Shown piece by piece: positions 6,667 through 30,761 of a stretch of 49,759 nt of DNA (the first letter of the stretch is position 1; each line of letters begins with the position of its first letter). The DNA comes from an uncultured Eisenbergiella sp. (lineage in GTDB: Bacteria; Bacillota; Clostridia; Lachnospirales; Lachnospiraceae). Below the pieces are notes generated by a model, which saw only the letters and a list, made by a program, of their open reading frames with translations, had not been told where the DNA came from and ran no database searches. Position numbers and translations under genes: made by a program. The stretch covers positions 1 to 49,759 of the forward strand of contig CANQFM010000018.1 of the NCBI GenBank assembly GCA_947598825.1, given 5' to 3'.

Positions 6667-6804
6667 TCATTCATATTCCTTCAAGATCTTTCTGACATAT
6701 TTCTTTCTTTGCGCGTTAAAAAGCGGAATGCAGAGCAGCATCGCCAGACCGCTCAACACGATCAAACCAATCCCGCCGTATACCATCATCTGTCCGACAG
6801 TCAT
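6667..6804 (-). CDS. 45-aa single-pass membrane protein
   Basis: 45 codons plus TGA. ATG at 6804 follows GGAGG. Sequence features: MTVGQMMVYGG start, one hydrophobic helix (about residues 8-29), basic C-terminal tail (QRKKYVRKILKEYE). It lies 39 bp after the kinase at 6844-8895 and 33 bp before the TPR gene. The 53-aa protein at 15924-16085, next to the other kinase, has the same design, with YGG at the start of the helix and a Lys/Arg tail. Two independent cases beside kinases make it a likely real gene. A role as small kinase partner or membrane adaptor is inference only. Confidence 0.65.
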   Translation of the reverse strand: MTVGQMMVYGGIGLIVLSGLAMLLCIPLFNAQRKKYVRKILKEYE

Positions 6805-6843
6805 TTCAGATCCTCCAATGAAAAAATAGCGTCGTTTGAGAAC

Positions 6844-8895
6844 TTACAGCCATCCGCCAGTCTCCAATTGTTTGTGCAAATTGTCCAAAAGCTGCATTTC
6901 CGTATCCCCGGCAGCAGGGGGAGCCGCTTCATAAAGGCTTTTCGCTCTTTCATAATATTTCAGGAAATCCCCATATTCTCTCTGGTCATTATCTTTTCTG
7001 TTCTGTTTCTCCACTTCCAAAAGAGCCCTCCGTTTATAGGTATTGTATTGATCCGGATACAGCCCTTCCATCTGCCGCAGTATGGCTTCCGCCTGTTCCA
7101 AATTGCCCATTTTCTGATATAGGATCGAAATATTATTATAAGTGATGTAACTGCCCCAACCCTGATCGATGATATCCTGCAGCACAGAAATGGCATTCAT
7201 GCCATAGGTATGATCAGAGGTCAGTTCGTCCAGATCGATATACGTCTGCGCAAGCCTTTCGTATATTAAAAGCCGATCTTCCAGGCCCACCCTGGTTCTG
7301 GCTTCTTCCAAAAGGGCTCTGGATTCATTCAGATATTCTATGCCTGCCTTGCTATCCCCTTCCCGATTTTCTTTAACATATTGATCGTACAAATTCCTGT
7401 AAACAATATCACAGATCACATATGCCCTCATTCGAACATGATCATCATCCGTTTCGGAAATACATTGGATTAGCGACTTCTTTGCACCTTCAAAATCTCC
7501 TTCATCTTTTTTTAGTTCCCCTTCGACGAGCAGAAGATCATCTGTAGAAAGCCCTTTCGTCCGCGCCGTCTGGAGTACATCTTTTGCTTTCCCCAACTCA
7601 TTCTGCCTCGCCAATGCTATTGCATAATCCCTGTAATAATCGGGATTCTCCCCATTTTTCAGGATTGCTGTCCTGTAATTTACGACCGCCCGCTCGTAAT
7701 CCCCCTGTTCAAAATAACAGTTGGCCAACAGAAAATAAATGTCCGCCATACGCACATCATCCATCCAATCAGCTTCCGTCAGAATCGTCCCCTCAATAAA
7801 TTCCTGACAGGTCGCGTAATCCCTCCGCGCATATAAATAAAGTGTGCGCTGGAAACAGGCGTCCAGGCGTTCAGGCCGCATCTGCCGCGCTTTCTCATAG
7901 AGTGTTTCTACATCCTGACCGTCCTGCCGCTCGACCGCTTCCCCTAGCAGGGAAATTGTCTGTACATAGGCGTTCTCCGCCTCCGCATCGAGTTCCTTAC
8001 GCCCGAAAAAAAACAGCAGAACGCCGATCCCCATACATACCGCTATTGATAAAAACATAAGTTCCTGCCGGAAAATCAGTCGCTTATATTTCGATTCATA
8101 ACGATACAATTCCTGGAAAGCTTTTCGCATCTCTTCCGCCGACTGGAAACGCGCCCTCGGGTCTGGATTCAACGCTTTCATGAGAATCACGCTAAGTCCC
8201 TCCCCGATTCTATCATCCAATTCGGAAGGACGCCTGATCTTATTGAAATCCCTGTCTGGTTTGATACCTGTCAAAAGATGGTAAAGCGTTGCTGCAATAC
8301 TGTAAATATCAGAGCGGGCATCTACAGGCTGAGATAAAGCAACTGCCCTATCCGTAACCTTTTGCACAGCGGCCGCCTGTTCCGGCGAGGCATACCCCGG
8401 CGTGTATCCCTGTACAGTCATGCTTTTCCCATCCAGGACACCGGAAATATTAAAATCGATCAGGCAGATATTGTCTTCCGGCGTCAGCATGATATTTGCC
8501 GGCTTAATATCCCCGTGAATAATCGGCGGATTCTGCCGATGCAGATAATCCACCACTTCGCAGAGTTGGACGGCATACCTGACAACCTGCTTTGGAGTAA
8601 ATTTACGTCCACTCTTAAGGAATTTATCCAATGAAGCGCCCGGAATATAATCGAGAACCGTAAAAACGCCGTCTTCCACTTCCAAAAAATCCAACACCTG
8701 CGGCAGATAGGAATGTTTCAGTTTTTTGAGGATTTCCTTCTCTTCTTCATTATGAAAACCGCTATGATGTATTTTTTTCAGGACGACTTCTTTCCCCAAA
8801 CGCTTATGCCAGGCTTTGTAAACCGTTCCACCGCCTCCGGCGCCAATTTGTCCTTCTATTTCGTAAGTATCGTGCAGTACAGAATTGAAATCCAT
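6844..8895 (-). CDS. Ser/Thr protein kinase with TM helix and TPR domain
   Basis: 683 aa. Kinase domain about 10-265: glycine-rich loop GAGGGGTVY (18-26), Lys40 in VVLK, catalytic HGDIKPAN (127-134), DFN (147-149) in place of DFG, ASPE (169-172), then SDIYSIAATLYHLLTG. The catalytic Asp and metal-binding Asp are present, so activity is expected. The HRD Arg is Gly, so it is a non-RD kinase that may not need activation-loop phosphorylation. A TM helix (about 279-297) is followed by about 385 residues of TPR-like repeats (for example LANCYFEQGDYERAVVNYRT), probably an extracellular sensor. It starts downstream of the terminator at 8986-9015 and leads the group with the 45-aa protein and TPR genes. 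No PASTA repeats, so not a PrkC/Stk1 type. Confidence 0.9.
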   Translation of the reverse strand: MDFNSVLHDTYEIEGQIGAGGGGTVYKAWHKRLGKEVVLKKIHHSGFHNEEEKEILKKLKHSYLPQVLDFLEVEDGVFTVLDYIPGASLDKFLKSGRKFTPKQVVRYAVQLCEVVDYLHRQNPPIIHGDIKPANIMLTPEDNICLIDFNISGVLDGKSMTVQGYTPGYASPEQAAAVQKVTDRAVALSQPVDARSDIYSIAATLYHLLTGIKPDRDFNKIRRPSELDDRIGEGLSVILMKALNPDPRARFQSAEEMRKAFQELYRYESKYKRLIFRQELMFLSIAVCMGIGVLLFFFGRKELDAEAENAYVQTISLLGEAVERQDGQDVETLYEKARQMRPERLDACFQRTLYLYARRDYATCQEFIEGTILTEADWMDDVRMADIYFLLANCYFEQGDYERAVVNYRTAILKNGENPDYYRDYAIALARQNELGKAKDVLQTARTKGLSTDDLLLVEGELKKDEGDFEGAKKSLIQCISETDDDHVRMRAYVICDIVYRNLYDQYVKENREGDSKAGIEYLNESRALLEEARTRVGLEDRLLIYERLAQTYIDLDELTSDHTYGMNAISVLQDIIDQGWGSYITYNNISILYQKMGNLEQAEAILRQMEGLYPDQYNTYKRRALLEVEKQNRKDNDQREYGDFLKYYERAKSLYEAAPPAAGDTEMQLLDNLHKQLETGGWL

Positions 8896-8985
8896 TTGTC
8901 GCGTCTATCCCCCATTGTTTTATCAGCGGATCGCTTCATCTGTACCCATCCCACTCATAGGTCGATGAAACACAGGGCTATCTGG

Positions 8986-9015
8986 AAAAAGGGGCCATAC
9001 ACACCGCATGGCCCC
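8986..9015 (-). terminator. Rho-independent terminator after the surface protein gene
   Basis: Minus-strand RNA: GGGGCCAT (9015-9008) pairs perfectly with ATGGCCCC (8998-8991), followed by five U (8990-8986). It lies 38 bp after the stop of the 1281-aa surface protein and separates it from the kinase gene at 8895. The rest of this 157-bp gap shows no clear promoter. Confidence 0.85.
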
Positions 9016-9052
9016 ATCTTTACACACTTATTTCAACATCCTTCCCGCCCAG

Positions 9053-12000
9053 TTAAAAACGACGTTTTCTCGCCGCATATGTTCCTGTCAGAACGCCTGC
9101 CGCCATAAGAAGCATCAAAAACCACAGTCCAGGCTCCGCGCTGTCGCCGGTGGCTGCCGCAGCCGTTGTCTTTGTTTCGCCGCCTGCTGCGGTCTGCATC
9201 AGGGAAGCGTCCTGTGCCGTCACCAGCCCAAGGCTTCCGTCACCGGAAACAAGCACTTCCAATACTACCGTTGAACCGGAAGGCGCAATGATTTGATCTC
9301 CATTTAGCAGCGTTTCACCTCCGAAGGCCAGCGTGAAACTCTTTTCCGCCAACGTATTCCCTCCGGAGTCCTTTACAAACAACGTGTGGTCGCCGCCTTC
9401 TACATTTAAGAACCAGGCATAGCCGTTTTCATCCGAAACCGCTGTCTTAGGTTCGGAATGCAGTTCCATAGGAAGTCCCGACACAGAGGTTTGATCGCCA
9501 CCAACCAAGTGTACCAACAGATTGATGCTGGAAAGCCCTCCGTTCTGTCCGCCCTGCCCTGCATTGGCCTGCGCAGTCTGTCCCACCGGCGCAGCGGTCT
9601 GCGTACTGCCGGAATCAGAACTGCTGCCGGAATCAGAACTCCCACTGCCGCTGTCGGAACTGGAATCGCTGCCGGAATCCTGCTGCGGCTTCTCCAAGCG
9701 GAAGTTCTGCGCTGTGCGTCTCAGATCGTTGCCACGGTCACCGCCCACACGGAACTCCACCGCGATCGTGTTGCGTCCGTTAACCGCCTTATTGGCAAAG
9801 GTACGGCTGCTAATCGTAATCTTGGTGCTTCCTCTTTCTGGAACATAATCCGCACTAAATTCCAGCTTCTCTCCATTGAGCCATAAATCGATAAACTCAT
9901 CATACTCACCGGAAGAAACAAACACCTGATCCGATATTTCTTCCAGCAGGAAATCTCTCGTCCCCTCACCAATCTCCGTACCGATGTGTTCTTCGATCAC
10001 ATATCCGTTATCGGAAGCATCATATACGTTTAAGTTTGTATTGTCATTAACTGTCAGAGTAAAATTCGCTTCTGTTGGTGAAAATCCAGCCTTGCTAAAT
10101 TCTGCCCTCACTCGGATGGGAAACTCGCCGGTTTCCTTTGGAACCCCGTAAATCTCGCCAGTCTCCGGGAAGAACTCCACGCCGGCAGGTAGCGAACCTT
10201 CGACCAGACTATAAGTCACCTTATTCCACTCATACATGTTACTGGTCGTGATCACATAAGAATACGGCACATATTTCACCGCTTCGTCCAGTTCGGTTGT
10301 CACAAAATGCGGGGTGCTGGCATAACCTGTCAGTTCGATCAGCACATCCTCCTGGCCGTCCGCGGAAACTTTCAGCCAGCCCTTGATCTCCCCCTCCCCA
10401 TCGGGGATCAGCCGGATCTTCGCCAGATTGTTCGCCGTACCGGAGGAATCATATCCCATGGCTGCCAGAGTATCGTTATTTTCCCCGCCGACCATCCAGT
10501 AGTCGTCCAGCTTAACGTGCTGGGCGTCAATTAGTTCCGCCTTGATACCGGTCAACGGCTCGTCACCTATATTAGCGATCAAAATATCGTGTCTGTATTC
10601 AAAATAATCATCTAGGAACACTTCCCGTTTGGACGGGCCGTTTACAAACAGCTTGGGACCGTTGGCTTTTTTTACAAAAGTGACCATATAGTTCCTGGTA
10701 TTTTCACCATGAACTACCGCCGTATACTGCACCGGTCCCTGAGAGAAATCCTGTACAGTCTCTCCAGATACCTGCTCAGTACCCACATAAGCTTTGGTCG
10801 TCTCACTATCCACCCAGAAAGTCGGACAAAGAGCGGAAAGATCCGCATCTGGATCCTGGATGATGATCGTCTGATATCCATAACCGTACTGAGTGTCAAA
10901 CGTCAGATCATATTCATTGCTGAGTACATAACAAGAATAATAGTCTCTGAAATACTGGTTTGGTTCTTTTGGTTTCCTTGCACCGTTTACGCGGAAATAG
11001 GGATCAGCTTCCCCAATAACGGGAAGATCACTATATTCTTTCTGTACATCTCTGACCAAGTAAATATAATATTTTAACAAAGTCCCATCTTTAAAAAATA
11101 TGGTAAATTGCCTGTTCGAGTTCGATAACATAGAAAATCCATAAGGAACAACACTCCTGTCCACAGGCATGACTTGCTCAGTAATATCTGCGGAGGCGGG
11201 TGCCGCATCCGGAGAATCATAATACCCAGTTACTATTTTGAGGATCTGATCGTTATTTTCCAGAACATAATAATACTGTCCGCCAAAGGGATATTCCGCT
11301 TTCAAATGATAATCCACATAAACACTGGATGACCTCAGGGCCTCCTGCACTTTTTGCTCGTCCTGCTCCGACTTCGGCAGATCTACAGTCCAGCTTGGTT
11401 GGCCATGGTACCAGTATTCCCTGTTCTTTTCTGTCACCGATATCATCTGACCATTCTCAACAACATAAATATCTCCTGGAATCGTAATCTCTTCCGGCTT
11501 CTCCCACTGAATCACAAAAACGATCCCCTGATGGGCAATGGTCATTCCAGATGTCTCATCAATATATGCAATATACAGGCAGTTATCCGCAGATGCAAGA
11601 GTTTCCGTGGCAGGTTGGGTATAAGTTGCCGCATATCCGCTTCCTTCCTTCTCCATCTCCTGATTCAGTATCTGGTCCGTAATCTCACCTTCCAGATTTC
11701 CCGTCTGCCGGTAAGCCTGATATGCGCTCATAGGATACACTTCCATACGGATATTAGGATAAAGATTTGCAATCCGTGAAGTCATTCCCAGATAGTAGGT
11801 TGCATCTTCCCTGTACGATATATAAGGGAAGTCCACTTCCTTGACCGAAACGCCCAAATCGCCTGCATTAGGAATATCCTGATAAGCGATATTATAGGAA
11901 TAGACAGGAATTTTATTTCTATCACTCTCGTTTTCCACCTGATAGTACAATTCATAGTCTATACTGTCATACAGCCGGTCAGTAAGATACACCGTCACAT

Positions 12001-12898
12001 GATACCGGACATTTCCGGGATCCAACTGTTTCCCGCTGCCAACGATCATTTCCAGTATATAACTGGTCGATCCACTGTAATAATAAGATAGATCCAGTTT
12101 CTCATCCCCGCCAAGTACCTGATAGTTATCATAGATCTGCCGTCCGTCCTTGTCCTTAAAATACGTCCAGACCACATTTGCGCCTTCGGGAAGTACGACA
12201 GGATCCCCATTTTCATCCACCAGGCAGCTCAGAATATAATCCAGGGACAATTCCTTCAGTTCCTCTTCCGAAAGTCCGTTGAGCAGCAGATAGACGTACT
12301 CTGTATCAAGATCCAACAAAGACGTAAGCATGGGAACCTGGGCGGGGTCCACCGTCTCCGTTTCTGTTTCTGTTTCCGTCTCAGTCTCCGTTTCTGTTTC
12401 CGTCTCAGTCTCCGTTTCAGTTTCGACTTCCGTTTCGATTGCTGTGTCTGTCGTCGTTTCGGCCGTCTCATCTGTCACCGTCTGCGTGTCGGGCTCTGTC
12501 TGCGCATCCGTAACGGTCGCTTCCGGTTCCGATCCCGCTTCAGGATCCGTTTCAGTCCCCGCTTCCGTTGTACTTGCAGGTTCCGTAACAGCCTCCGAGG
12601 TGCTTTCCACATCCGTCCCGGATACAGGCTCTGTCGATAGGATTTCGTCCCCGTTGCTTGCCTCCGGAATCGTTGACTCCTCAGGCTGTGTACCCGGAAG
12701 CTGTTCCGGCTCCGAAGCTTCCTCATCGTCACCGGAAGACTCTTCGCCGCCTGAAGCCAAGTTTTCCGTTTCGCCCTGATCCAGCGACGTTTCCGCTACA
12801 GTATCCGGCTGCTGCGTGACTTCCGCCGCCATCGACTGCAGCGGAGTAAGCGCCAGCATCAGAACCAGAAAAACTGACAGCCACTTCTTCTTTCTCAT
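9053..12898 (-). CDS. Large cell-surface protein with Glu/Thr stalk, Ig-like domain and C-terminal membrane anchor
   Basis: 1281 aa. Signal peptide (MRKKKWLSVFLVLMLALTPL, cleavage near SMAA), then an acidic Ser/Thr/Glu region to about residue 182 that includes 13 or so ET dipeptides (about 155-180). Middle beta-rich region with a cadherin-like/putative-Ig segment (SLPAGVEFFPETGEIYGVPK, around 930). A Ser/Asp/Gly-rich linker (about 1100-1125), one more beta domain, and a C-terminal TM helix ended by RKRRF. The end has the form of a sortase signal (TGD before the helix, basic tail), but a proper LPxTG is absent. The start overlaps the kinase stop by four bases (ATGA), so the two are translationally coupled. 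Likely the surface client or ligand-binding partner of that kinase; no ligand can be named. Confidence 0.8.
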   Translation of the reverse strand: MRKKKWLSVFLVLMLALTPLQSMAAEVTQQPDTVAETSLDQGETENLASGGEESSGDDEEASEPEQLPGTQPEESTIPEASNGDEILSTEPVSGTDVESTSEAVTEPASTTEAGTETDPEAGSEPEATVTDAQTEPDTQTVTDETAETTTDTAIETEVETETETETETETETETETETETETVDPAQVPMLTSLLDLDTEYVYLLLNGLSEEELKELSLDYILSCLVDENGDPVVLPEGANVVWTYFKDKDGRQIYDNYQVLGGDEKLDLSYYYSGSTSYILEMIVGSGKQLDPGNVRYHVTVYLTDRLYDSIDYELYYQVENESDRNKIPVYSYNIAYQDIPNAGDLGVSVKEVDFPYISYREDATYYLGMTSRIANLYPNIRMEVYPMSAYQAYRQTGNLEGEITDQILNQEMEKEGSGYAATYTQPATETLASADNCLYIAYIDETSGMTIAHQGIVFVIQWEKPEEITIPGDIYVVENGQMISVTEKNREYWYHGQPSWTVDLPKSEQDEQKVQEALRSSSVYVDYHLKAEYPFGGQYYYVLENNDQILKIVTGYYDSPDAAPASADITEQVMPVDRSVVPYGFSMLSNSNRQFTIFFKDGTLLKYYIYLVRDVQKEYSDLPVIGEADPYFRVNGARKPKEPNQYFRDYYSCYVLSNEYDLTFDTQYGYGYQTIIIQDPDADLSALCPTFWVDSETTKAYVGTEQVSGETVQDFSQGPVQYTAVVHGENTRNYMVTFVKKANGPKLFVNGPSKREVFLDDYFEYRHDILIANIGDEPLTGIKAELIDAQHVKLDDYWMVGGENNDTLAAMGYDSSGTANNLAKIRLIPDGEGEIKGWLKVSADGQEDVLIELTGYASTPHFVTTELDEAVKYVPYSYVITTSNMYEWNKVTYSLVEGSLPAGVEFFPETGEIYGVPKETGEFPIRVRAEFSKAGFSPTEANFTLTVNDNTNLNVYDASDNGYVIEEHIGTEIGEGTRDFLLEEISDQVFVSSGEYDEFIDLWLNGEKLEFSADYVPERGSTKITISSRTFANKAVNGRNTIAVEFRVGGDRGNDLRRTAQNFRLEKPQQDSGSDSSSDSGSGSSDSGSSSDSGSTQTAAPVGQTAQANAGQGGQNGGLSSINLLVHLVGGDQTSVSGLPMELHSEPKTAVSDENGYAWFLNVEGGDHTLFVKDSGGNTLAEKSFTLAFGGETLLNGDQIIAPSGSTVVLEVLVSGDGSLGLVTAQDASLMQTAAGGETKTTAAAATGDSAEPGLWFLMLLMAAGVLTGTYAARKRRF
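12359..12436 (-). repeat. Hexanucleotide-like Glu-Thr repeat tract
   Basis: About 78 bp that encode alternating Glu and Thr (residues about 155-180 of the surface protein), built from variants of a 6-bp GAAACN/GAGACN unit. It is in-frame and coding. Slippage would shift the length in steps of two residues without frameshift. Confidence 0.7.
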
Positions 12899-15800
12899 TT
12901 CTGTACTCCTCCATTCCTCATTGCTTGGGCAATTTCTTTTAATTCCCCTATATCGTAAATGCGCGCGCTGCGCAAATTACCGGTTGGATAGTCAAACAAC
13001 AGCGTCTCGCCGATCACATCGCAAAGACAGGGCAGGTCTGCCAGTACCTCGCAATTCTCATCCATCAGCCGCCCATAACAGCTTCCTTCCGCTGTGACAT
13101 ACTGCGCTACCAGATAAGGCCCCGCCTGGGTTACATAGGTCAGATAATCCTGCTGTTCCAGTTCGCGGATCTTCTTGCCTGTCTTTCGGTCATACACCGT
13201 CGCCGCTTCATGTAGAGGGGACTCGATCCTCAACCTGTCCGTTAAAAAGGTTTCCTGCAGGGACGGATCCGGACGTTCCCCTTTTGTCTCTTGTAACAGG
13301 GTTCCATCGGCTGCGCTGTAGGTACGCACTGTCCCGTCGTTATAAATGACTTCGAGCCAGGAGCCTTCCTCTGTCCTGCGGTACTGCTGATCGTAGATCT
13401 GCCCCGGATCGGGCAGGGCAACACGTTCCAGCAGTGTCCCATCCATGGCATAAAGGCTGAAATGTTCATAGTCAAACAGCATGACTGTTTTCCCGTCCTT
13501 GCTCAGCCGGGCTTCTTTATGGGTATCGGCGATATCATAGGAAAACCGTTCCGCTTCCGGATGATTTTCATATTTTAAAATACGCACGACCGGCGTATTC
13601 CGGCTGCCAGCCAACGCAGCCGCGCCTGCGAGCCTGGCAAAATCGCATCCCTCCGGAATTTCCTGCCGTTCAAAAAGCTGTGCCGCCCCATCAAAAAACA
13701 AAATTGCATTTTCTTCTGTGGCGATCGCCGTCCGGCCGTCACTGTCAAAGCAACGGATCGTTTCCGAGGTCGTCACCAGCGGCGTCTGCTCTCCGGTCAC
13801 CGGGTGAAGCTTTACAAGAATATTTTCAGACAACACGAAAATTCCCGTTTCATCCGTCTTTACTCCAAAATAACCCTCCGTCTCAAACCCGCCGGTCTGT
13901 TCCATCGTTTCTGTATCCACTACTGCGAAAACAGAATGCTTCTGCCCGGACGCGGAAAAAGCAAAATACTGCTGATAAAAACCGCCTTCAAAATGGCCGT
14001 AGCCGGAACCGGCGTCCAGGAGAAGCTCATCCTTAGCCGGATCCTCCACATCGCAGATCCGGAGGCTTCCGTCTGCAAAGCTGATGCCCAGCAGACTTCC
14101 GTCTTCATTCAAGGCAAACAGGTTATCATTGGGATTGGCAAAGCTGTCATTGGCAACGACCTGCTGATGCTTTCCTCCAAAATCAATACGTTGGAGAAGC
14201 TCGCCGCTGGATGTATCGTAAATGGCTGCAAAGGTATCCTCCCGAAAAACCGCCGCAACCCGGCTGCCGTCTCCCGAAATGCTGATCCCGGTAGCCGCAT
14301 CCCCGGTCCAGAGCGTTTCTCCCTTTTCTATGTCATATAGTTGAATCCCCTCCTGTCCGGAAAAAACCACCCTATGATCGTCTACATATTCTACTTCCGC
14401 CAAGGCGGACTGGACCGTTGGGAGAACTGCCAGCGTTTCCGCCGTTTCCATATCAATTACGGCCATCTCATAAGCGTAAAGGCAGCATGCCGTCCTTCCG
14501 TCCGGCGAAATCTCCAGAGAAAACGGGGCCGATGGCAATTCTACCGTCAAGTGCGTTTTAAACCCGTCGGAAAGATCATAGACCCCCAGGGCGTCCGCCA
14601 AAGCCTTCTGCGCCTGAGCAGGCGCCTTGGGCGTCAACAGGCCGGGAGGCGGAGCAAGCGCCTGCATGGCATAAGAAACCGCCGTCTCCGAATCTCCCTT
14701 CGCATAAGCGTTTCGGGAATACTCTGCAAGCTTTAAACGGTTCTCTGTCACCTGCATCCTTTTTAATCCCACAAAGGAGCAGGCAACGCCGCTCATAAAA
14801 CATACCGCCAGGATCGCACCCACGATCCGACGTTCTTTTTTTAAACGCAACGCGCGCGGATCCCGGTCCCTCAGATGAAGGAACGCATCCAGCATTTCCT
14901 CCGCCGTCTGAAAACGCAGCTCCGGATTGGGTTCCATCGCCCTGGAAATAATCGCTGCGATCTGCGGACTAAATTCGTCCGGGGAAAGCGGCACAACCTC
15001 CTTCGCGTCCCTGGCGGGCCTTGTGCCGCTTAAAAGGTGATACAGCGTGGCTCCGACACTGTAAATGTCCGACCGGATATCCGGAATGATTTTTCTGGAG
15101 CTGCCGGAACCGGAGGACGTAGATTTCGGGGAGGACGTCCCACGACCGCCCGCAGCCTGCCCGGCTGCCCCGCTTTTTTCTCTATCGGACAGCTTCACCG
15201 TCTCTTCTTCTGTCAGTCTGACTGTAGCCGTCGTATCTTGCGAACCGGGCTTTGGCCCAAAACGCCCTTGAGAGGTTTCCCGACCCGAACTTCCTTTCAG
15301 CAGGGAAAGACGTCGACGGCCTGTGTTCCCGGTTTCCGTCCGATCGTACTCCGATGAAAAATCCAGCCCGTAATGCTCCGGAGAGGCATACCCGATACTG
15401 CAGCCGATCACATTTTCCTCGCCCAGCGCCAGGGCAATGTTAAAATCGATCAGGCAGATATCGTTGTTGGGCGTACGCATCAGGTTTGCAGGCTTAATAT
15501 CGCTGTGTACATATCCCCTCGGCGGAGTGCCGTGAGTCGGGCTGTGGAGATAGCAAAGCGCTTCCAGCAATTGAATAGCCCATCGGATCACCTGGGGCTG
15601 GGAGAACTTTTCCCCTCTTTTCAAGGGCTTGTCCAGGCTCTCCCCTTCGATATAGGCCATGACCGTATAGACGGTTTCATCCTCTACAAAAAAGTCGTAT
15701 ACCTGGGGTATATAGGGATGGCTCAGATTTTTCAGTACATCCACTTCCCGGCGCAAAAGCTCCGGTCTGGCGGAAAGCGTCCGTTTATCCGCTTTCAAAA

Positions 15801-15906: not shown

Positions 15907-15923
15907 TTCTTTTGCACCTGCCG

Positions 15924-16085: not shown

Positions 16086-16105
16086 AGCAGCCTCCGTCCG
16101 AGAAC

Positions 16106-21666: not shown

Positions 21667-21700
21667 GCGTTTTTATCCTCTCGTTCCCATAAGAATGCTT

Positions 21701-22360: not shown

Positions 22361-23013
22361 ACAGCCGTCTTTGCCCTCGCCTTAAATACCCGTTTTTGTT
22401 CCCCAAGAAAACCAAGATTGTAACGAACCCTATAAGTCATCACAATATCCAGTTCCCGGGAACCATCAAACCATTTCGTGCCGGAAAAAGAAATATCCTC
22501 AACTCCCAGCTTTTTCAGATACGCGTCCGGATCGCCTCCGGAAAGATAGGAAAGCTGTTTTTTCAGGCTCCCCTCGCATACCGCTCCAACGGCCAATTCC
22601 TTCCCCAGATTGGATGCCAGATTTTTTGCTACGGCAATAACGCCGTCCAAAATTTCTTCGCTGTTTTCAAAATAATCGTAAACATTCTCTCCCGTCACAT
22701 AGGCCTGGCCGATCACATCACCGCCGCTGCCGATCGTATTGGCAAGCGTCTTGACGGAATCGATCATCTCTTCCGTCCGTCCTTTAAACTGTGCGCTTTT
22801 CTGGCTTGTCTGGATGCTCTTTTCCACAATACCCGCTTTTGTCAGGATATATGTACACTGAGAGATCTCCTTGGCTGTTTCATTCAACGTATACTGCATG
22901 ATCATCTGGGCGCGTCCGATCTGAACCAGATCCATAAGCGCCACATAAAACATCAGGAACATGGACAGGAAGATCGATGCCTCCAAAGTAATACTTCCTT
23001 TTTCTTTTTTCAT
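22354..23013 (-). CDS. TadE-like pseudopilin (second copy)
   Basis: 219 aa. N-terminus MKKEKGSITLEASIFLSMFL: Gly6 followed by SITLE places Glu at position +5 and a hydrophobic helix after it, the type IV prepilin cleavage pattern. The mature part (about 180 residues) has helices and a beta-rich end (KWFDGSRELDIVMTYRVRY), as in TadE/TadF proteins. Start is two bases after the DUF5702 stop, with GGGG as ribosome binding site. Probably a minor pilin of the Tad fibre. Confidence 0.75.
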   Translation of the reverse strand: MKKEKGSITLEASIFLSMFLMFYVALMDLVQIGRAQMIMQYTLNETAKEISQCTYILTKAGIVEKSIQTSQKSAQFKGRTEEMIDSVKTLANTIGSGGDVIGQAYVTGENVYDYFENSEEILDGVIAVAKNLASNLGKELAVGAVCEGSLKKQLSYLSGGDPDAYLKKLGVEDISFSGTKWFDGSRELDIVMTYRVRYNLGFLGEQKRVFKARAKTAVW

Positions 23014-23014
23014 T

Positions 23015-25666
23015 TTAATACCCCAGCAGCCCGTAATAAGGGATCACAAAGGAATTTTCATCCAGATTCTTTGCCTCCGGACTGTCTATCTTTTGTAAAA
23101 AGAATGTATCCGTCCGCACCTGGGCATCAATATATACCATGGTATACATATGCCGCAGAGAATTGCTCGGATCGCTCTTTGCCTTGGTTCGATTCAGTTC
23201 GATACAATCCGCTGTCCGCGCCAAAACTTTGGGCTGTTTTGATCCCTGCATCACATTTAAACACAGGAATACCCACAGGTAATCGTCATAACGGAACGCG
23301 GTCACGCCATGATTCGGTTTGCCGGTATGTCCTTTGATAATGATCCACGTCTCCCAGTTATCCTGTCTTTTTTTCAGATCCACCTTTTCACCGGATACAA
23401 GCTGCTTGAGATCGTTTGTCGTCTCGATCAGGGATACTACCGCCAACAGGGCCGCTTTGATCGCCGCCCTTCCAAGGGCGCCCAGGGGGAAGAGATTCGC
23501 TATCGCCCCGGCATCGGTTTTTAATGTCTTATTGGTAAAGGCAAACAGGGTATTAAAGACAAACTGGATCGTAAAGATCAGCGCCTTCGTCTTGGTGACA
23601 TTATCCCGGATATCTTTATCCCCCCAGATCACATACTCCACCTCGGCGCGGTAAAGCACGTTATCCTTCAATGGCATATCGCTCAGAGAAAGAGGATTGT
23701 CCTGTTTTTCACCTTTCTCATCCCGATCCACCGTATAATAGGAAAGCATTCCCATAATATATTCCGTAATGTATACGGCTTCCATACCTCCATGAAGCGC
23801 GCTGCCAAGGCCGCTGACAGCGGACAGCGCCGAATTGTCCGCATTCATCGCGTTGCGGGCGCTGTCGCTGACTTTTTTCCGGTTTTTCTTACTGGACATA
23901 TTGCCTTCGATCTTCTCTTCCTGGCTATCGCTTTCGCTTTCCCGCACGGCAAGCCACTGGGATGGAAGATCCTGCTGCCCCTTTTCGTATACGTCGATGT
24001 CCTCAATGTCATTCGAGGTGAACAGCGTCAGATACTCCTCCAGCATTTCCTTTAAATTGCCGTCCCACTTATCGCTTTCTTCTTTGCTTCTTTTCTTGTC
24101 TCCCTTTTCCTGATTGCACAGTTCTTCCCGAAGATAATGGACAAACTTTGTGTCTTCTAAATTGCCCGCTTTCTCTGTTGTGACACTGCTAAGCGGATGA
24201 TTATCCGCCCAGGACCACTGATTTCGCATCATGTCTGCCGCCGTGGTGGATAACTCCGCCTGCGTCCTGACAGAACCCGAGGCGCCTGCCGCCAAAGAAT
24301 CGATCAGGGATTTCGGATCTCTTTTTTCCGGGTGTTTTCCGCCAAACTTTGCCGCCACGGTTCCGCCGTTAAACACCATTGCGTCCAGTTCATTCTTTAT
24401 AGCCTCATAATACTTCTTGTTGGCGGCCAACATTTCATCAAATTCCTGTGTTTCATCCTTGGCAAAAAACGGGGCGTAATCCGCCGCCTGGGAAGACATT
24501 TCCGTTTTGGTATCCCCCTCCGGCATTTCACTGATGCTACCCTCCCAATCTTCGTACAGGCCCCTGCACTTTTCCAGTTCCTCCCTCATTTCTGCCATTT
24601 GTTCTTCGATCAATTCTGCGCTTTCATACCCCATATATACAAGATCATAGGTTTCATAGATCATATCCGCCGTCCGATCAGCCAGTTGGTCATATTCTTC
24701 TTTAATCTGAACGATTTGATCGGCCCACCACTCGGTGTTTGAATTATATTTGCTGATCTCGTTGGCGATTTCCTTGTATTCATCGGAATTGCTGTCCAGA
24801 TTACTGAGGAGACTGCTCGGGTTGCCCTGCATCCGTTCCTGAAGTTCCTCCATCTTGAGCAGGGATTCAAAGCCCTCGATCCCGCCGCTGCAGCCGTCCG
24901 CCAACTCGTTAAAGGATTTTAAAAGGCCCAGAGACACATCTTCTCTTGTCCCGCTAAAGTGATAATTTACCAGAGCGTCATAACCTGTGGCCAGAAGGCA
25001 CATCCGCGAATAATTGTCCTTTGTTTCCTGCATCTGCTTCCGGATCCCGGACGTCGAGGCTATACTTTTATATACTCCCGTATGAATATCTACCGACGAA
25101 AGCAAATTGTCGAACTTCTCCTGCATATCCTCCAGCTCGGACTCAAATTTTATCTGGCTGTCGATCGCTTCTTTTTCCTTGTCTATCCCCTCAAACTGCG
25201 CCACTTTATCCAGGATCGCACGGTTTACAAAGGTCACTGGGGCCCGATATTTCATATACTCCAGGATCTCCTGCTTCATGACCTCGGTTTCCCATATCTC
25301 CGTGTCGCTCATGGGACCCGCGTCAAAATGCTCTTCCATCAGTTCCAGTTGGATCAGCGCTTTGTTAAAATCCTTCTCCGTCAGCCCATTTGCGTTTAGG
25401 GTGGATTCAAAATAATCCTGCATATGGGCTTTCAGATCCTCTTCGCTTTCCGCCGTGGCGATCAGTCCATAAGCGTCGTTAAGGCTGGCGCTATATCCCG
25501 CCAGAGCGCCGTTCATCGCCAACTCTCCCGCCCCTGAAACCATGTTCCGACTGCCGTATATGCGCACGCCGTCCACGATCACTCCGCCGAACAACAGCGT
25601 AGGGATTAGAATGAGCGTCAGAAAGACCGATATGGCGCCGTCATGTTTTCTGCAAAAATCCAGCAT
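23015..25666 (-). CDS. Giant TadG-like protein (DUF5702 family)
   Basis: 883 aa. N-terminal helix (DGAISVFLTLILIPTLLFGG) after a short basic/polar start, then IVDGVRIYGSRNMVSGAGEL and LNDAYGLIA, phrases typical of clostridial DUF5702 proteins in Tad loci. Gly10 could be a prepilin-type cleavage point, but the +5 residue is Phe, not Glu. Long coiled-coil-like stretches (about 130-400), a polar middle, and a hydrophobic segment (about 690-760). Unlike proteobacterial TadG I see no MIDAS motif. Probably an external or tip component of the pilus. It lies 15 bp after the TadE gene. Confidence 0.75.
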   Translation of the reverse strand: MLDFCRKHDGAISVFLTLILIPTLLFGGVIVDGVRIYGSRNMVSGAGELAMNGALAGYSASLNDAYGLIATAESEEDLKAHMQDYFESTLNANGLTEKDFNKALIQLELMEEHFDAGPMSDTEIWETEVMKQEILEYMKYRAPVTFVNRAILDKVAQFEGIDKEKEAIDSQIKFESELEDMQEKFDNLLSSVDIHTGVYKSIASTSGIRKQMQETKDNYSRMCLLATGYDALVNYHFSGTREDVSLGLLKSFNELADGCSGGIEGFESLLKMEELQERMQGNPSSLLSNLDSNSDEYKEIANEISKYNSNTEWWADQIVQIKEEYDQLADRTADMIYETYDLVYMGYESAELIEEQMAEMREELEKCRGLYEDWEGSISEMPEGDTKTEMSSQAADYAPFFAKDETQEFDEMLAANKKYYEAIKNELDAMVFNGGTVAAKFGGKHPEKRDPKSLIDSLAAGASGSVRTQAELSTTAADMMRNQWSWADNHPLSSVTTEKAGNLEDTKFVHYLREELCNQEKGDKKRSKEESDKWDGNLKEMLEEYLTLFTSNDIEDIDVYEKGQQDLPSQWLAVRESESDSQEEKIEGNMSSKKNRKKVSDSARNAMNADNSALSAVSGLGSALHGGMEAVYITEYIMGMLSYYTVDRDEKGEKQDNPLSLSDMPLKDNVLYRAEVEYVIWGDKDIRDNVTKTKALIFTIQFVFNTLFAFTNKTLKTDAGAIANLFPLGALGRAAIKAALLAVVSLIETTNDLKQLVSGEKVDLKKRQDNWETWIIIKGHTGKPNHGVTAFRYDDYLWVFLCLNVMQGSKQPKVLARTADCIELNRTKAKSDPSNSLRHMYTMVYIDAQVRTDTFFLQKIDSPEAKNLDENSFVIPYYGLLGY

Positions 25667-25681
25667 CTTTTGTATCCTTTA

Positions 25682-26374
25682 TCAAAACAGAACGTCCCTC
25701 ACTTTTGTCAGGGCTTCTGTGATCTTTCCCAGTTGATCGCTGATTCCCAGCTTTTCACAGGCCAGAACCACCACGTCCACAGCCAGATCCGTATTGCGAA
25801 TGAACCCTGCCGGATTGACTGCCCTGCTGTAAGACCCCTGTTTCCAGGCAATGGTATCCTGCATTCCGAAAAACCGCAAAATGCCCGGCGTCCGTACCTC
25901 ATATTTCACCTCGGCACAGACACTGGTTCCGAAAAAACTCCGATGCAGTTCTACCTCCGTCTGAAACAGCCGACCGGCGGCCAGAACGGAAACCGTGTCC
26001 AACACTTTCTCCCCATAACTTCTGATATCTCCGTCATGGATCCAGGGGGTTCCCGTCAATTCCCGGTATAAGTTGACCAACGACTCATGATACGCCTTAT
26101 AATAGGCTTCTATTTCTTCCTGATCCGGCGGGCCGCTCCAATCAATATCCTTAGCGTCCAACGCATAACCGTTCCGGGCCAGCTTCGCATATCCCGGGCT
26201 GGATGCCATCAGACCTCCAGCGGCCGCCACCCGCTGCACCTGATAGAGCATGGCGGACTCCTGCAGCTTAAAAAGTCCCAGATACAACATCGCCGCAACT
26301 GTCAGAAGCACCATTGGAAAAATGATGACCGCCTCCACCATGACCGCGCCGGATTCCGATGTGTTCTTTTTCAT
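25682..26374 (-). CDS. tadE: TadE-like pseudopilin (first copy)
   Basis: 230 aa. MKKNTSESGAVMVEAVIIFP: Gly9 is followed by AVMVE with Glu at +5, then a hydrophobic helix, so it should be a substrate of the prepilin peptidase at 21701-22360. The middle (about 35-170) is typical TadE: YQVQRVAAAGG and a beta-rich body with CAEVKYEVRTPG. Two TadE-like genes flank the DUF5702 gene, the usual clostridial order. Confidence 0.78.
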   Translation of the reverse strand: MKKNTSESGAVMVEAVIIFPMVLLTVAAMLYLGLFKLQESAMLYQVQRVAAAGGLMASSPGYAKLARNGYALDAKDIDWSGPPDQEEIEAYYKAYHESLVNLYRELTGTPWIHDGDIRSYGEKVLDTVSVLAAGRLFQTEVELHRSFFGTSVCAEVKYEVRTPGILRFFGMQDTIAWKQGSYSRAVNPAGFIRNTDLAVDVVVLACEKLGISDQLGKITEALTKVRDVLF

Positions 26375-26461: not shown

Positions 26462-26677
26462 TCATGAACTGATAAACGTTGTCAATTTACCAAATACAGT
26501 ATCAACCGCTGTTTTTAGCGAATCTCTGAAAAAACCAGCAATGAAAATAATGATCACAATAATCACAATCATGGACACAAAATTCGTATCCCCGTCCTCT
26601 TCCTCCAGCAGCCGCTGCAGCAACCGATTTGATTTCAAACGGTATTCGATTAATTTGTTGTCGATCCACATTCTCAT
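26462..26677 (-). CDS. flp: Flp-type (Flp1-like) type IVb pilin
   Basis: 71 aa. Hydrophilic leader (about 1-29, ending LEEEDG) then DTNFVSMIVIIVIIIFIAGF, the GDTN start and single hydrophobic helix of clostridial Flp1 pilins, and a short tail. Cleavage is expected after Gly29, giving a mature pilin of 42 residues. The usual Glu at +5 is Val. The leader is longer than in proteobacterial Flp. It is the main fibre subunit of the Tad pilus; placed between tadC and tadE, with a hairpin after it. Confidence 0.8.
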   Translation of the reverse strand: MRMWIDNKLIEYRLKSNRLLQRLLEEEDGDTNFVSMIVIIVIIIFIAGFFRDSLKTAVDTVFGKLTTFISS

Positions 26678-26722: not shown

Positions 26723-27583
26723 TCATAACCCCCCGAGCAGAGGAGCCATAATCATAAACAAAATTCCCAGGAAGATCAAGGTGATCGGCCCCAGAAGCTT
26801 GGAATTTGCCTGCTCGCTCTTGCGCCGCACCAGATTTTTCTTCAGCTCCCACATTTCATCCGACATATCCTTTAAAAAGTAAGTCAAATCCCCGCTTCCC
26901 TTGGCCAGGCTCTGGGACACCATGGACGAAAATTTGCGCATTTCCTTTAAGCCGCAGCGCTCCGCAAAATTCGAGTATGCGACCGGCTCCGATACCCCGT
27001 TTTGCAATTCCGCCGTCGTCAACCGCATTTCCTCATACAGAACGCCCTCGCCGCCCTCTGCTACTTTGCTCCAGGCGCTGCGCAGCATCATCCCGGAGTT
27101 GACCAGCAGCGTGATCTTGGAAAGCACCTGGGGAAACTCCGCCAAAAGCTGTTCCCGCCTCGCCGTCAGCTTATCTTTAAAGGATTCGCTCAGATACCAG
27201 ACCAGAAGCCCCGCCAGCACGATTCCCAGAAACAAAAGCTGCAGACTGTTGCCCAAAATCGCCAGCATGAAAACCAGCGGCAGGATCGTCACCACATAGG
27301 TGGCCTGACCACCCACTAACACATAGTAGTAATATTCCGCGTACCGTCTCCCGTACACCTCCGACATTTCCTTGACTTTTTTTCTGGCACGGTCGGATTT
27401 CGTGTCGAACCGGATAAACTCCAGGATCTGAAAACCGATATAAAACATCTCGGCCATAGGGTACTGTTTTTGATCCAGCGTCTCCGTAATACCGGCGAAT
27501 TTCTGCTCATACCGCGCCGCCAGCCAGATCCAGAATACCGCCGCCACCGTAGCGGGGAACAAGAGGATTATCTGAAACGTCAT
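26723..27583 (-). CDS. tadC: TadC-like inner membrane platform protein (T2SS F family)
   Basis: 286 aa. Helices at the N-terminus (FQIILLFPATVAAVFWIWLA), a pair near the middle (VGGQATYVVTILPLVFMLAI and LQLLFLGIVLAGLLVWYLS) and one at the C-terminus (LLGPITLIFLGILFMIMAPL). The cytoplasmic stretch LLAEFPQVLSKITLLVNSGM is the GspF/TadC signature. Works with TadB as membrane base on which the TadA ATPase drives pilin assembly. GGGAG precedes the ATG; 30 bp from tadB. Confidence 0.87.
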   Translation of the reverse strand: MTFQIILLFPATVAAVFWIWLAARYEQKFAGITETLDQKQYPMAEMFYIGFQILEFIRFDTKSDRARKKVKEMSEVYGRRYAEYYYYVLVGGQATYVVTILPLVFMLAILGNSLQLLFLGIVLAGLLVWYLSESFKDKLTARREQLLAEFPQVLSKITLLVNSGMMLRSAWSKVAEGGEGVLYEEMRLTTAELQNGVSEPVAYSNFAERCGLKEMRKFSSMVSQSLAKGSGDLTYFLKDMSDEMWELKKNLVRRKSEQANSKLLGPITLIFLGILFMIMAPLLGGL

Positions 27584-27613: not shown

Positions 27614-28438
27614 TTAAATCTTGATATCCGTAATTTTTCTGCCCAACAGATAGGCCCCCAGGAAAATCCCCAGTGAAGCCAGCTTGATCAGGACATTCAG
27701 CGGGGAATTTCCCACTGCTGTCATATCGCTTCCCAGTCCTTCCATACTGACAATAATGATCAGGGGCATGATCATCATGATATTTAATTCGTTCTTGTTG
27801 CCGGAAAGAAGCGTCTCAATTTCCATTTCAATTTCAATCTTATCATTGATGATATCCCTGGTCGCTGCGATGATATCCTGGATATTGGCGCCCTGTCTGA
27901 CGCTTACCTCAAAGACATCGGCAAAACTCTGCACATCTACCAGTTCGCTTCGATCTGCAAAGTCCTGCAGCAACACCTCAATATTGAGATTGCTGCGGAT
28001 CCCCAACAGGATCAGCGCCAGTTCCCTGGCAATATCCGCTTCCTCCCCGTAAATCTGAACCATATCGCTATAGGCATCCTCAAACGCTCCCTGCGTATTT
28101 TTCCCGGCGGAATAAGAGGATGTCAGGGATTCCAACATGTCCCTGAACTGAAACAAAAGGGCCTTCTTTCTCTTTTTACAAAGCCATTCCCCATAAAATC
28201 CCTGAATAAATATGCCTGCTGCCACTCCGCAGGTCACGCAGAACCAAATGCTCCTGAAAAAAAGAAAAACCACCAGGACAGCGGCTCCGAATCCCAGCAG
28301 GAAAGCAATGATATGTTCCTTGAGATCCATGCTGTAAACGTGATAATCCGTTCCCTGTCCCAAAATTCCCCGTTTGGGAATATATTGCTCTTTCTTTTTC
28401 TTTTTTTCTCCGGAAACCTTTTCTTTCCCCTTTTTCAT
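27614..28438 (-). CDS. tadB: TadB-like inner membrane platform protein (T2SS F family)
   Basis: 274 aa. Lys-rich start (KKKKKEQYIPKRG), two helices (IIAFLLGFGAAVLVVFLFF; IWFCVTCGVAAGIF), a T2SSF domain (about 105-235: LLFQFRDMLESLTSSYSAGK and DVFEVSVRQGANIQDII) and two C-terminal helices. Paralogue of TadC, with which it should form the membrane platform. 10 bp downstream of tadA. Confidence 0.88.
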   Translation of the reverse strand: MKKGKEKVSGEKKKKKEQYIPKRGILGQGTDYHVYSMDLKEHIIAFLLGFGAAVLVVFLFFRSIWFCVTCGVAAGIFIQGFYGEWLCKKRKKALLFQFRDMLESLTSSYSAGKNTQGAFEDAYSDMVQIYGEEADIARELALILLGIRSNLNIEVLLQDFADRSELVDVQSFADVFEVSVRQGANIQDIIAATRDIINDKIEIEMEIETLLSGNKNELNIMMIMPLIIIVSMEGLGSDMTAVGNSPLNVLIKLASLGIFLGAYLLGRKITDIKI

Positions 28439-28448: not shown

Positions 28449-29675
28449 TCATATGTTCCCCCGATAGCCCATCAGCCTCAGCTTATGATCGTTACGAAAA
28501 GGATTTTTTGTCCTGGTCAGTTTCCCTCTTACCACTTCCAGCGTACTGGTCTCATCCTCAATAAACTCGTAAATCGGATTGAGCTGGATCTCCCCATTCT
28601 CGTATCCCAGAACTTCCGATATTTCCATGGTCTTCCTGCTTTTATCACGCAGACGGGACAAATGGATCAAAATATCCACAGCGGATGCGATCTGCTGTCT
28701 GACAGCGGCCAGCGGCAGTCCTTCTGCGCCCTGCAAGACCATTGTTTCCAGCCTGCTTAACATATCCCGATTGGAATTGGCATGACCGGTGGATAAAGAT
28801 CCGTCATGACCCGTATTCATGGCCTGCAGCATATCCAGGGCTTCCGCGCCTCTTACCTCTCCGACCACGATACGTTCCGGCCTCATTCTCAGCGCAGATT
28901 TGATCAGATCCTGAATGCTGATCCGGCCAACCCCTGCATTATTCGCATTTCTGGTTTCCAGGCTAACCAGATTTTCAATCCCGGCAATCTGCAGTTCTGC
29001 GGAATCCTCTATCGTAATGATCCTTTCATCTTTCGGGATAAAGTTGGTCACAGCGTTCAGGAAAGTAGTCTTGCCGCTGCCAGTGCCCCCACAGATAAAA
29101 ATGTTGTACTTTGCACGCACCAGAAGTTCGAGGACGCTTGCTACCTCAGGCGTGATAGAGCCATATTCCAGCAGCTTCTCCACAGTCATCGGATTTTTGG
29201 AAAATTTACGGATCGTTACGATCGGGCCTTTTAGGGAGATTGGAGGCATAACCACATTGACACGGGAGCCATCCGGCAGACGGGTATCTACGATCGGGTT
29301 AGCCTCGCTGACTTCCCGCCCTGCCAGCGCAACGATCTTGCGAATGATATCCACCAACTTCTCTTCGCTCTCAAACTGCGCGTCCAGCTTTTGCAGCCGA
29401 CCTGATTTTTCAATAAAAATGTCCTTGGCACCATTGATCATCACCTCAGTTATGTTATCGTCCTTGAGGATACTGTCCAACAGTCCAAACCCTCTGATCG
29501 AACTGAATACGGCATCCGCGATCTCCGCTTTTTCACCAATCGTCAGTCCTTCTCCACTGTATCTTCTTTCTACAGCGCCGACGATCCACTGATCCAGTTC
29601 CTCATCGGACATCGCGGCAAAATTTGCTTTTTCCAGTATCTCTGTTTTGATCTCATTGATCCATTCCGTTTTCAT
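28449..29675 (-). CDS. tadA: TadA/CpaF-family secretion ATPase
   Basis: 408 aa, close to the family length. N-terminal all-helical domain (about 1-65), then the CpaF core: Walker A GGTGSGKT (196-203), [10 protein letters not shown] (Asp box), [36 protein letters not shown] (Walker B region) and LSTGHANS (His box). It is the hexameric motor for pilin extrusion in the cytoplasm. Between the TadZ-like gene (30 bp) and tadB (10 bp). Confidence 0.94.
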
Positions 29676-29705
29676 CGCTTTTTCCTATGATCCATTCGAT
29701 AGGTT

Positions 29706-30761
29706 TCAATCTGAAAAAACTCCCGATGCGGCCATTTTTTTCATAACCGTCTTTTTATCTTCCTCGGTATATTCCAAGCAATTTCCGGCTATACGCAACT
29801 GGCAGCCTGCCAAGGGCGTCACCTGACCATTTTTACACTTGTTATAAAAAATTCTCGCCTTGAACAGGATATGATCCTTCCCTTTTTTCTCCATAGCTTC
29901 CATATATTTCTGAAACTGCATCAGTTTGGAGCGAGACGTCTCTGTGCCATCGGCTACGACCCATATCCCGTCTGCCTCCTTCATACTTTCTGACAGCCAT
30001 TCCGAGGGATATCCGTCCATATCCAATACGATCTCGTCAAACAATCCGCAGCCTTTCAGCTCCTCCAGAAGGCGCTTCCATTCCTCCCGGGACATTTCCA
30101 ACAGGCTCAGGGGATTTTGTACTGGCGCATAAAAAAACAAGCCTTCCCGGGTTCTTCTGAGAGAACTTTCTATTTTCAGTCTCAAACTGCCCCTTCTGCT
30201 TTTTAAAGCATACAAAATATCATCCAATCCAAATTCGCCTTCGCCTTCAAAGACGCTGCTGCAATCTCCAAACACTTCCAGGTTCAGATATAAAACCTTT
30301 CTCCCCGCCGTATGACGCAGCGCGTAAGCACCGGAAACCGTGGACGCCCCCGTCCCGCCATGTATGGGGAAGAAAAGCTGTAGGCTTGCCCCCCGGCCCG
30401 CTTTTTCCGGATCCTCCGGATCGCGGTTGTCACCGGAAGCGTATAGTCCCAAAATCCTCTTATAAATAAGCTCAGCTTTCTGATATTTAAAGATCCTGAC
30501 TTTATCCCTGGATGCCGCATTGTTCTTTTCTTCACAAAGACAAGCTATGGACACTGATCCCCGCACCTGTAATGCTGTAGTGTCCGTTTCTTCATCGACC
30601 AGCAGGATATCCGCTCCATTGCGCGCAAGAAAATCTGACAGCGCGTCTATATCGGTAAAACGGCTGATCTCCACCTTGTCAAAATAATGGATATTAAAAA
30701 AATTAACCAAATGATTCGTATAGGAAATATCATGAGAGAATATAGATAATCTGATCTTCAT
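29706..30761 (-). CDS. tadZ: TadZ/CpaE-like atypical MinD-type ATPase
   Basis: 351 aa. N-terminal receiver-like domain without clear phospho-acceptor set (about 1-110: ISYTNHLVNFFNIHYFDKVE and GADILLVDEETD), then a MinD/ParA-like domain. The P-loop reads HGGTGASTVSG: both the signature Lys and the GK[ST] Lys are missing, as in other atypical TadZ proteins, so ATP use is uncertain. Further ATPase phrases are VLYLNLEVFGDC and EIVLDMDGYPSE. TadZ proteins mark the pole or site of pilus assembly. First gene of the locus, behind the divergent promoter at 30836-30886. Confidence 0.8.
   Translation of the reverse strand: MKIRLSIFSHDISYTNHLVNFFNIHYFDKVEISRFTDIDALSDFLARNGADILLVDEETDTTALQVRGSVSIACLCEEKNNAASRDKVRIFKYQKAELIYKRILGLYASGDNRDPEDPEKAGRGASLQLFFPIHGGTGASTVSGAYALRHTAGRKVLYLNLEVFGDCSSVFEGEGEFGLDDILYALKSRRGSLRLKIESSLRRTREGLFFYAPVQNPLSLLEMSREEWKRLLEELKGCGLFDEIVLDMDGYPSEWLSESMKEADGIWVVADGTETSRSKLMQFQKYMEAMEKKGKDHILFKARIFYNKCKNGQVTPLAGCQLRIAGNCLEYTEEDKKTVMKKMAASGVFSD

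Follow-up and report, generated by a model that had tools for sequence, protein, structure and literature searches.

Do the machinery of a Tad pilus and a set of phosphorylation-signalling proteins belong to one system, or do they merely lie side by side? The question is raised by a 49,759-nucleotide stretch of DNA from an uncultured Eisenbergiella sp. of the Lachnospiraceae (contig CANQFM010000018.1, assembly GCA_947598825.1). This stretch, here called the window, is a complete contig (C18) of a genome (G000) that comprises 110 contigs and is 99.57% complete. On its minus strand, from 30761 to 9053, the genes of a Tad machine run into genes for an adaptor with a DUF6382 and an FHA domain (named J after TseJ), a PP2C phosphatase, a VWA-FHA protein, a macrodomain protein and a Ser/Thr kinase. 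An earlier note on this DNA, made from the letters alone, had proposed that pilus and signalling genes are fused at the operon level, and Pfam confirms every domain it named, on the minus strand and in or close to the places it gave. Its core idea proved right and broader than claimed, in that the locus represents a conserved Tad lineage with a kinase, a phosphatase and a pseudokinase-FHA adaptor, the function of which we infer.

Conservation of the Tad and signalling genes

We compared two samples of loci encoding J, with flanks of about 10 kb at each locus (shorter at contig ends) and with domain calls from jackhmmer families seeded by window proteins and applied to stop-to-stop frames. The named loci are the best 80 of 417 relatives, obtained via a pattern requiring N-H-T in the FHA domain, and form a query-biased set. 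J is present in the maps of 78 of them. Among the loci collected, two pairs of contigs look identical by length (L173/L101 and L200/L102) and two genomes (G087 and G222) contribute two loci each. Any tad gene, a count that includes TadV, TadE-like or DUF5702 alone, accompanies J in 71 of these 78 loci, and at least one of TadZ, TadA, TadB and TadC does so in the stricter count of 58. PP2C lies downstream of J in 63 loci (within 500 bp in 59), a kinase in 58 and both in 57, rates that describe this sample and not the population. WG-repeat, propeller and immunoglobulin (Ig)-like genes were found in 66, 12 and 7 loci, respectively, while EssC, VWA and macrodomain genes occur in none of the 78 flanks. 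The less biased class loci (n = 54, mostly high scorers) were drawn from 127 genomes that matched DUF6382 in a class-wide search of 391 genomes. Any tad gene is present in 52 of them and at least one of TadZ, TadA, TadB and TadC in 46; PP2C lies downstream of J in 12, a kinase in 10 and both in 9, and EssC, VWA and macrodomain genes were again not found in the flanks (0/54 each). The conserved order in the named genomes is Tad-TadV-(WG)-J-PP2C-kinase, and the hosts are mostly Lachnospiraceae, Oscillospiraceae/Ruminococcus and other Clostridia, including Clostridium lacusfryxellense and Oribacterium. A Tad machine is tied at the operon level to FHA, PP2C and kinase genes across families of Clostridia. 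The neighbourhood comparison of TadA, DUF6382-FHA and PP2C suggested in the earlier note came out in its favour, and the fusion stands for Tad, J-FHA, PP2C and kinase; the VWA and macrodomain proteins, which it had included, are not part of the conserved set.

DUF6382 is further associated with DUF5702, a Tad-locus marker that the class-wide search matched in 121 genomes. Among the matches listed, with 15 DUF6382 rows below 26 bits and secondary DUF5702 pieces excluded, DUF6382 occurs in 114 genomes and DUF5702 in 112, of which 96 are common to both (odds ratio 87, p 7e-55); 68 of 118 DUF6382 rows share a contig with DUF5702, 61 within 15 kb (median 2.7 kb). A quick tree of 71 TadA sequences places the window protein in a clade of 31 rows (support of 100 in the Shimodaira–Hasegawa-like approximate likelihood ratio test, SH-aLRT), which contains 22 of the 24 PP2C + kinase loci, 5 of the 7 PP2C-only loci, 3 of the 33 J-only loci and one cut locus. 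Over 300 columns, window TadA shares 83% identity with the TadA of G207, which belongs to another family. On contig 29, the window's own genome carries a further Tad locus that encodes J and, up to the contig end, neither PP2C nor kinase; the TadA of this locus falls outside the clade. Of the 12 further members of the genus that were searched, one (G689) shows a second Tad locus; this has J, VWA-FHA, kinases and PP2C, with no macrodomain gene within the stretch read. We consider it rather probable, jointly with the switch discussed below, that Tad operons carrying the phosphorylation module form a distinct Tad (type IVc pilus) lineage. In the open-licence PMC literature, searched by titles and abstract openings, we found no description of kinase, PP2C and FHA genes together in a Tad operon of Clostridia, and DUF6382 is named in one paper. 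The novelty asserted in the earlier note holds to this extent for Tad, while the consulted part of one source supplies a precedent for the parts in TseJ, TseF, TseD and TseI of T7SSe, a variant of the type VII secretion system (T7SS) (PMC11217815).

The gene run and its proteins

The run reads TadZ-A-B-C-Flp-230-residue protein-DUF5702-TadE-TadV-WG-J-PP2C-VWA/FHA-macrodomain-53-residue gene-kinase/propeller-Ig protein, with all gaps but one below 90 bp. From tadZ to the macrodomain frame, the intergenic distances are 30, 10, 30, 45, 87, 15, 1, -7, 34, 13, 14, -4 and 3 bp; the last of these becomes 81 bp if the macrodomain gene starts at its ATG (16570), the start with the better upstream site. 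The exception is the 178 bp from the macrodomain gene to the first kinase, within which the 53-residue gene lies, so that the spacing described in the earlier note applies from tadZ to the macrodomain gene and not from there to the kinase. A promoter-like site is located at 30864-30836, within the 693-bp leader upstream of tadZ, and no known RNA was matched in this leader at the gathering threshold, the sole match being a tRNA at 33790-33862. At the other end, the top terminator-like hairpin of the minus strand in a pattern scan (9015-8991; 11 pairs, 7 of them G-C, then T5) closes the main unit and coincides with the terminator previously placed at 8986-9015. The other, weaker hairpin candidates are intragenic, with 31 in 5000-24000 on both strands against 17.6 expected from shuffles. 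This arrangement suggests a single transcript across the run. The second kinase gene (6844-8895, minus strand; Pkinase 4.7e-37), whose product has a predicted transmembrane segment and TPR repeats, had been counted in the same unit; it is probably a separate one, because the hairpin precedes it.

J (19044-20357) is composed of DUF6382 (residues about 1-165), a linker and an FHA domain (361-427), as assigned by Pfam, and topology prediction gives it no transmembrane segment. Structure matches indicate a kinase fold across most of the AlphaFold2 model of DUF6382 (predicted local distance difference test score, pLDDT, 90.3), with the EssB/YukC pseudokinase (6z0f) and TraF (8cba) as top two Foldseek matches; TraF is itself presented as a structural homolog of EssB/YukC in the title of its report (PMC13037476). 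The model has no Lys-bearing strand between the strand at 11-17 and the helix at 25-33, and only M30, N34, Y93 and P122 are invariant in 52 rows. By prediction, DUF6382 is thus a pseudokinase like EssB/YukC that has lost its catalytic motifs, although YukC is a membrane protein and window J is soluble by topology and fused to FHA. Compared with PDB sequences, the DUF6382 profile gave nothing convincing (best E 0.43). A first J alignment was dropped as a scan profile for being too diverse. In the FHA domain, H and N are kept in 133 of 133 J rows. Among kinase-linked rows, the Arg position is occupied by Lys in 51/71 and by Arg in 17/71, and the Ser position by Ser in 55/71 versus 24/53 in rows showing neither a kinase nor PP2C. 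Within the class sample, a downstream kinase accompanies 7/7 J proteins whose FHA is of the N-H-T type versus 3/45 of the other types (Fisher p 9e-7), where two of the seven share one locus and the test ignores kinship of loci. Of the sequence evidence, this covariation speaks most strongly for J and the kinase working together.

The enzymes appear intact. The first Ser/Thr kinase (12895-15906; Pkinase 5.5e-32) is followed in the same chain by a transmembrane helix (361-379) and an extracytoplasmic propeller-like region. Beta3 Lys, HxD Asp, the Asn and DFG Asp are kept in 92 of 92 kinases; Tyr takes the place of the HxD His in 47 and Asn that of the DFG Gly in 25, the window showing the same, and 82 retain the catalytic-loop Lys, the window's among them. 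The PP2C/PPM phosphatase (18241-19029; Pfam 4e-10) retains its metal-binding Asp residues, each scored Asp being kept in 98 of 99 sequences, and groups in a quick tree with the Tad-linked L150/L151 proteins (support 81).

Directly 5' of the first kinase lies the previously unannotated 53-residue gene (15924-16085), which is preceded by a Shine-Dalgarno-like GGAGG and encodes one transmembrane helix. A jackhmmer search of 48,044 small frames from the window and the collected loci (L001-L036 excluded) found relatives that share a YGG...EYG signature. By a distance rule, 17 of 18 kinase-propeller genes have such a relative directly upstream on the same strand, and in the 18th (L227) it overlaps the start of the long frame. 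Among non-propeller kinases an adjacent relative was found in 4 of 78, including the window's second kinase, whose neighbour is a 45-residue transmembrane gene (6667-6804) that ends at the lower bound, 6667, of the earlier note. The family occurs in Tad-linked as well as EssC loci (L050, L119), and its likeness to TsdH/TseH is one of description only, as far as the consulted text describes them (PMC11217815). The last gene of the run (9053-12898; He_PIG 8.1e-9) encodes an exported Ig-like protein with a C-terminal transmembrane segment. An open frame of 2371 residues (L160:13095-20207), from a bin of an uncultured Acetatifactor, unites kinase, propeller and Ig-like region and is possibly a natural fusion of the two neighbouring genes; as the bin is metagenomic, the fusion may also be an assembly error.

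The Tad/Flp set of TadZ, TadA, TadB, TadC, Flp pilin and prepilin peptidase is complete in the window, all on the minus strand. It comprises TadZ, with an atypical receiver and an ATPase region (29706-30761; TadZ-like_ARD 2.3e-19), the motor ATPase TadA (28449-29675; T2SSE 2.1e-60), for which the NCBIfam TadA model is the best match yet stays below its cut-off (311.7 of 373 bits), TadB (27614-28438), called by position and jackhmmer family with a weak T2SSF match (0.022), TadC (26723-27583; T2SSF 6.8e-11), the Flp-type pilin (26462-26677; Flp1_like 1.1e-9) and the TadV prepilin peptidase (21701-22360; Peptidase_A24 6.5e-13). Between the last two lie a recurrent 230-residue Tad-locus protein (25682-26374), with no Pfam match and with jackhmmer relatives at the same position, the DUF5702 protein of 883 residues (23015-25666; 1.6e-25) and a weakly matched TadE-like protein in a recurrent position (22354-23013; TadE 0.047). 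The WG-repeat protein (20371-21666; WG_beta_rep 7.9e-39) has a hydrophobic N-terminal segment.

Beyond the second kinase, positions 1-6633 encode a lipoprotein, three proteins with TPR repeats and a 654-residue protein that is incomplete and has a transmembrane-like start; TPR relatives also accompany EssC-linked kinase loci. Elsewhere, a 326-residue frame (38998-39978) matches AAA_25 and, after it, Glyco_hydro_88 in its C-terminal half; this chimera is odd and possibly an assembly join.

Parts shared with type VII secretion and local additions

In the part of the literature source available, T7SSe contains TseD, TseF, TseH, TseI and TseJ, and T7SSf a TadZ-like TsfV (PMC11217815). The two variants resemble the window in having DUF6382-FHA, PPM, transmembrane kinase, large exported Ig-like and small single-transmembrane proteins, to which T7SSf adds the TadZ-like one; unlike them, the window kit lies beside a complete Tad machine, and the window's genome gave no match to an EssC-type ATPase (query P0010, 1e-20) or to WXG100 (PF06013). 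The FtsK_SpoIIIE frames of this genome reach up to 1167 residues, none EssC-sized. A control search for WXG100 was positive in 2 of 14 genomes, including B. subtilis. YukD-like TsxB proved an insensitive marker, with no match in 7 genomes and none either in the EssC-positive G687. Among 27 genomes searched for EssC-type proteins at 1e-20, 8 gave no match, including G000 and G689, six matched only in frames of 720-1077 residues and 13 have longer EssC-type frames. In the propeller tree, the T7-labelled L037 and L050 are intermixed with Tad-linked rows; in this tree and that of PP2C, G463, G520 and G516 carry the T7 label although no EssC lies in the stretch read, that of G463 being on another contig. 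Parts of the kit are common to Tad and type VII machines, since the propeller tree mixes both and the window PP2C goes with Tad-linked ones. Because the window's genome has neither an EssC-type nor a WXG100 match, a kit partly described for T7SS variants would here serve Tad alone.

Mixed arrangements also occur. A locus from the same genus (L119; G687 contig 44) encodes EssC, TPR, J, TadZ-like, VWA-FHA, PP2C, kinase-propeller and Ig proteins, with no TadA/B/C in 19 kb, and is T7SSe/f-like. In G278:C1 (about 1238000-1260000), a J/Tad locus has, at a distance of about 19 kb, a 1289-residue EssC-type frame, whose match begins at query residue 234 and does not cover the FHA part. The latter case resembles the published T7SSg/h, which adjoin Tad genes through a link that the authors call unclear in the text consulted (PMC11217815).

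The VWA-FHA protein (16652-18244) has a signal segment, a VWA domain, a transmembrane segment and a cytoplasmic FHA, and is predicted to be exported. Its FHA has lost the Arg and His positions of the usual phosphothreonine site, and any binding by it is probably independent of phosphate. Among 299 genomes of the family, 16 gave a match to the protein at 1e-10, the window's genome included, and 11 of the 14 other neighbourhoods read contain an EssC-type ATPase, one of which is an FHA-FtsK-FtsK protein (Pfam). VWA-FHA is lineage-specific and mostly EssC-linked in the family; with this, and with no case among the J loci of either sample, this part of the earlier proposal falls by the refuting condition set in the note. 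A VWA-FHA tree, in which the context label of L062 is wrong, gave no resolution on common descent of the proteins from the two Tad loci.

The macrodomain gene (16106-16570, its frame open to 16648; Macro 1e-40) is well placed for co-expression and is not a conserved component. Macrodomain proteins matched in 55 of 80 genomes (82 listed), and among these matches only two, the window's and that of G150 (G150:C2), have a J/Tad locus on their own contig at a distance of up to 25 kb, against a chance estimate of 1.4. The two fall into separate parts of a 21-row tree and are not sisters; the window protein groups with proteins of the GVCGAIF type whose genes lie elsewhere (58% to G403). With proximity to tad near chance and no case in either locus sample, we rejected it as a conserved part of the system, and with it the ADP-ribose chemistry that had been proposed; it is probably an incidental, local passenger.

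A putative phosphorylation switch and its rivals

We hold, with moderate confidence, that the Tad machine is controlled by threonine phosphorylation through its operon-borne kit, because the operon ends in its own kinase, phosphatase and phosphate-reading adaptor. The membrane kinase would read a signal via its outer propeller and the exported Ig and WG proteins, and would phosphorylate itself, a Tad platform protein or both. The soluble pseudokinase-FHA protein J could then dock on the phosphothreonine and enable TadZ/TadA to assemble or drive the pilus, with PP2C resetting the switch. The exported VWA-TM-FHA protein, which spans the membrane (TM), may be an extra input added in the window strain.

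Several observations weigh against this switch. The phosphothreonine site of window J is not textbook, with Arg and Asn kept and Ser replaced by Gly, and Arg is commoner in J proteins where no kinase or PP2C was seen (29/53). Since Lys replaces Arg in 51/71 kinase-linked rows, ligand binding by the J FHA could be phosphate-independent, as is argued for YukC and the YukB FHA in the section of the source consulted (PMC9600267). In 42 of 54 class loci no PP2C lies downstream of J, which argues for a Tad role of J that is independent of the switch. The closest J relatives, L150 and L151, have PP2C, yet the stretches read behind J (9 and 4.6 kb) contain no kinase, and two PP2C + kinase loci (G132 and G150) lie outside the TadA clade.

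Could the signalling genes instead be a T7SSe/f-like remnant or accessory that lies beside tad by chance? Going by their domain descriptions, TseJ, TseF, TseD and TseI correspond to J, the PPM phosphatase, the kinase and the Ig protein, in the part of the source covered (PMC11217815), the VWA-FHA family is mostly EssC-linked, and L119 joins EssC to most of the same genes within the genus. The window's genome and 7 of 26 others, however, lack an EssC-type match, no WXG100 was matched in the former, none of the J loci of either sample has EssC within its flanks, and the window PP2C groups with Tad-linked ones. The remnant reading is largely refuted for the core, and we regard it as improbable overall. 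A defence triad of the TerY-P type (VWA-PP2C-kinase), parked in a pilus locus, shares the three domain types; in PADLOC, moreover, PP2C matches PDC-M21C (3.4e-6), a candidate defence family, and both kinases score on kinase models. These kinase matches are limited to the kinase domain, though; J matches no model and VWA-FHA none at 1e-3, and no VWA was found in any of the 57 named loci with both PP2C and kinase. The likeness to TerY-P drawn in the earlier note is not borne out by an exported transmembrane protein with a cytoplasmic FHA, and we give this explanation very little credence.

Bacterial Hanks kinases and PP2C often govern cell-wall growth. The operon might accordingly be co-transcribed while its kinase set governs envelope or general stress and affects the pilus only indirectly. 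There is a parallel in MviN, where a pseudokinase phosphorylated by PknB recruits FhaA, according to the part of the report available (PMC12599244). Against this stand the linkage of the set to a single Tad lineage in the TadA tree, the covariation of J FHA type with the kinase and the presence of tad genes at 52 of 54 class J loci, and we think an envelope role of this kind unlikely, if less so than the remnant and defence readings.

Related logic is known from other machines. Myxococcus, host of the Tad-like Kil machine, is Gram-negative. Several FHA proteins are suggested to signal in Kil; they differ from the window in that FHA sits on the ATPase itself, and the word 'kinase' has no occurrence in the main text (PMC8460266). 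The PpkA-PppA-Fha pathway of type VI secretion similarly places a Ser/Thr kinase and an FHA protein on an envelope machine, as outlined in the excerpt consulted (PMC3953482); the machine is another one, and the window FHA protein bears a pseudokinase-like domain. ArnA/ArnB of the archaellum are FHA and VWA proteins that kinases phosphorylate and a phosphatase dephosphorylates and that act on a type IV filament; they differ in being archaeal, described as repressors and paired with a PPP rather than a PP2C phosphatase, in the passages available (PMC4187195).

More tentatively, a single plug-in cassette of pseudokinase-FHA, PPM, receptor kinase with its partner of about 50 residues, and Ig protein may be exchanged between the unrelated Tad and type VII machines of gut Clostridia and make them fire in response to contact or cues from the envelope; DUF6382-FHA would be primarily a Tad part borrowed by T7SS variants. 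We know of no fast control of the Tad pili of gut Clostridia. An operon with motor, kinase, phosphatase and adaptor offers a defined, testable switch; in addition, DUF6382 gains a predicted fold, and a conserved small transmembrane gene is revealed. The finding also bears on the question, printed in the consulted part of the T7SS study, of whether Tad and type VII loci share regulation (PMC11217815).

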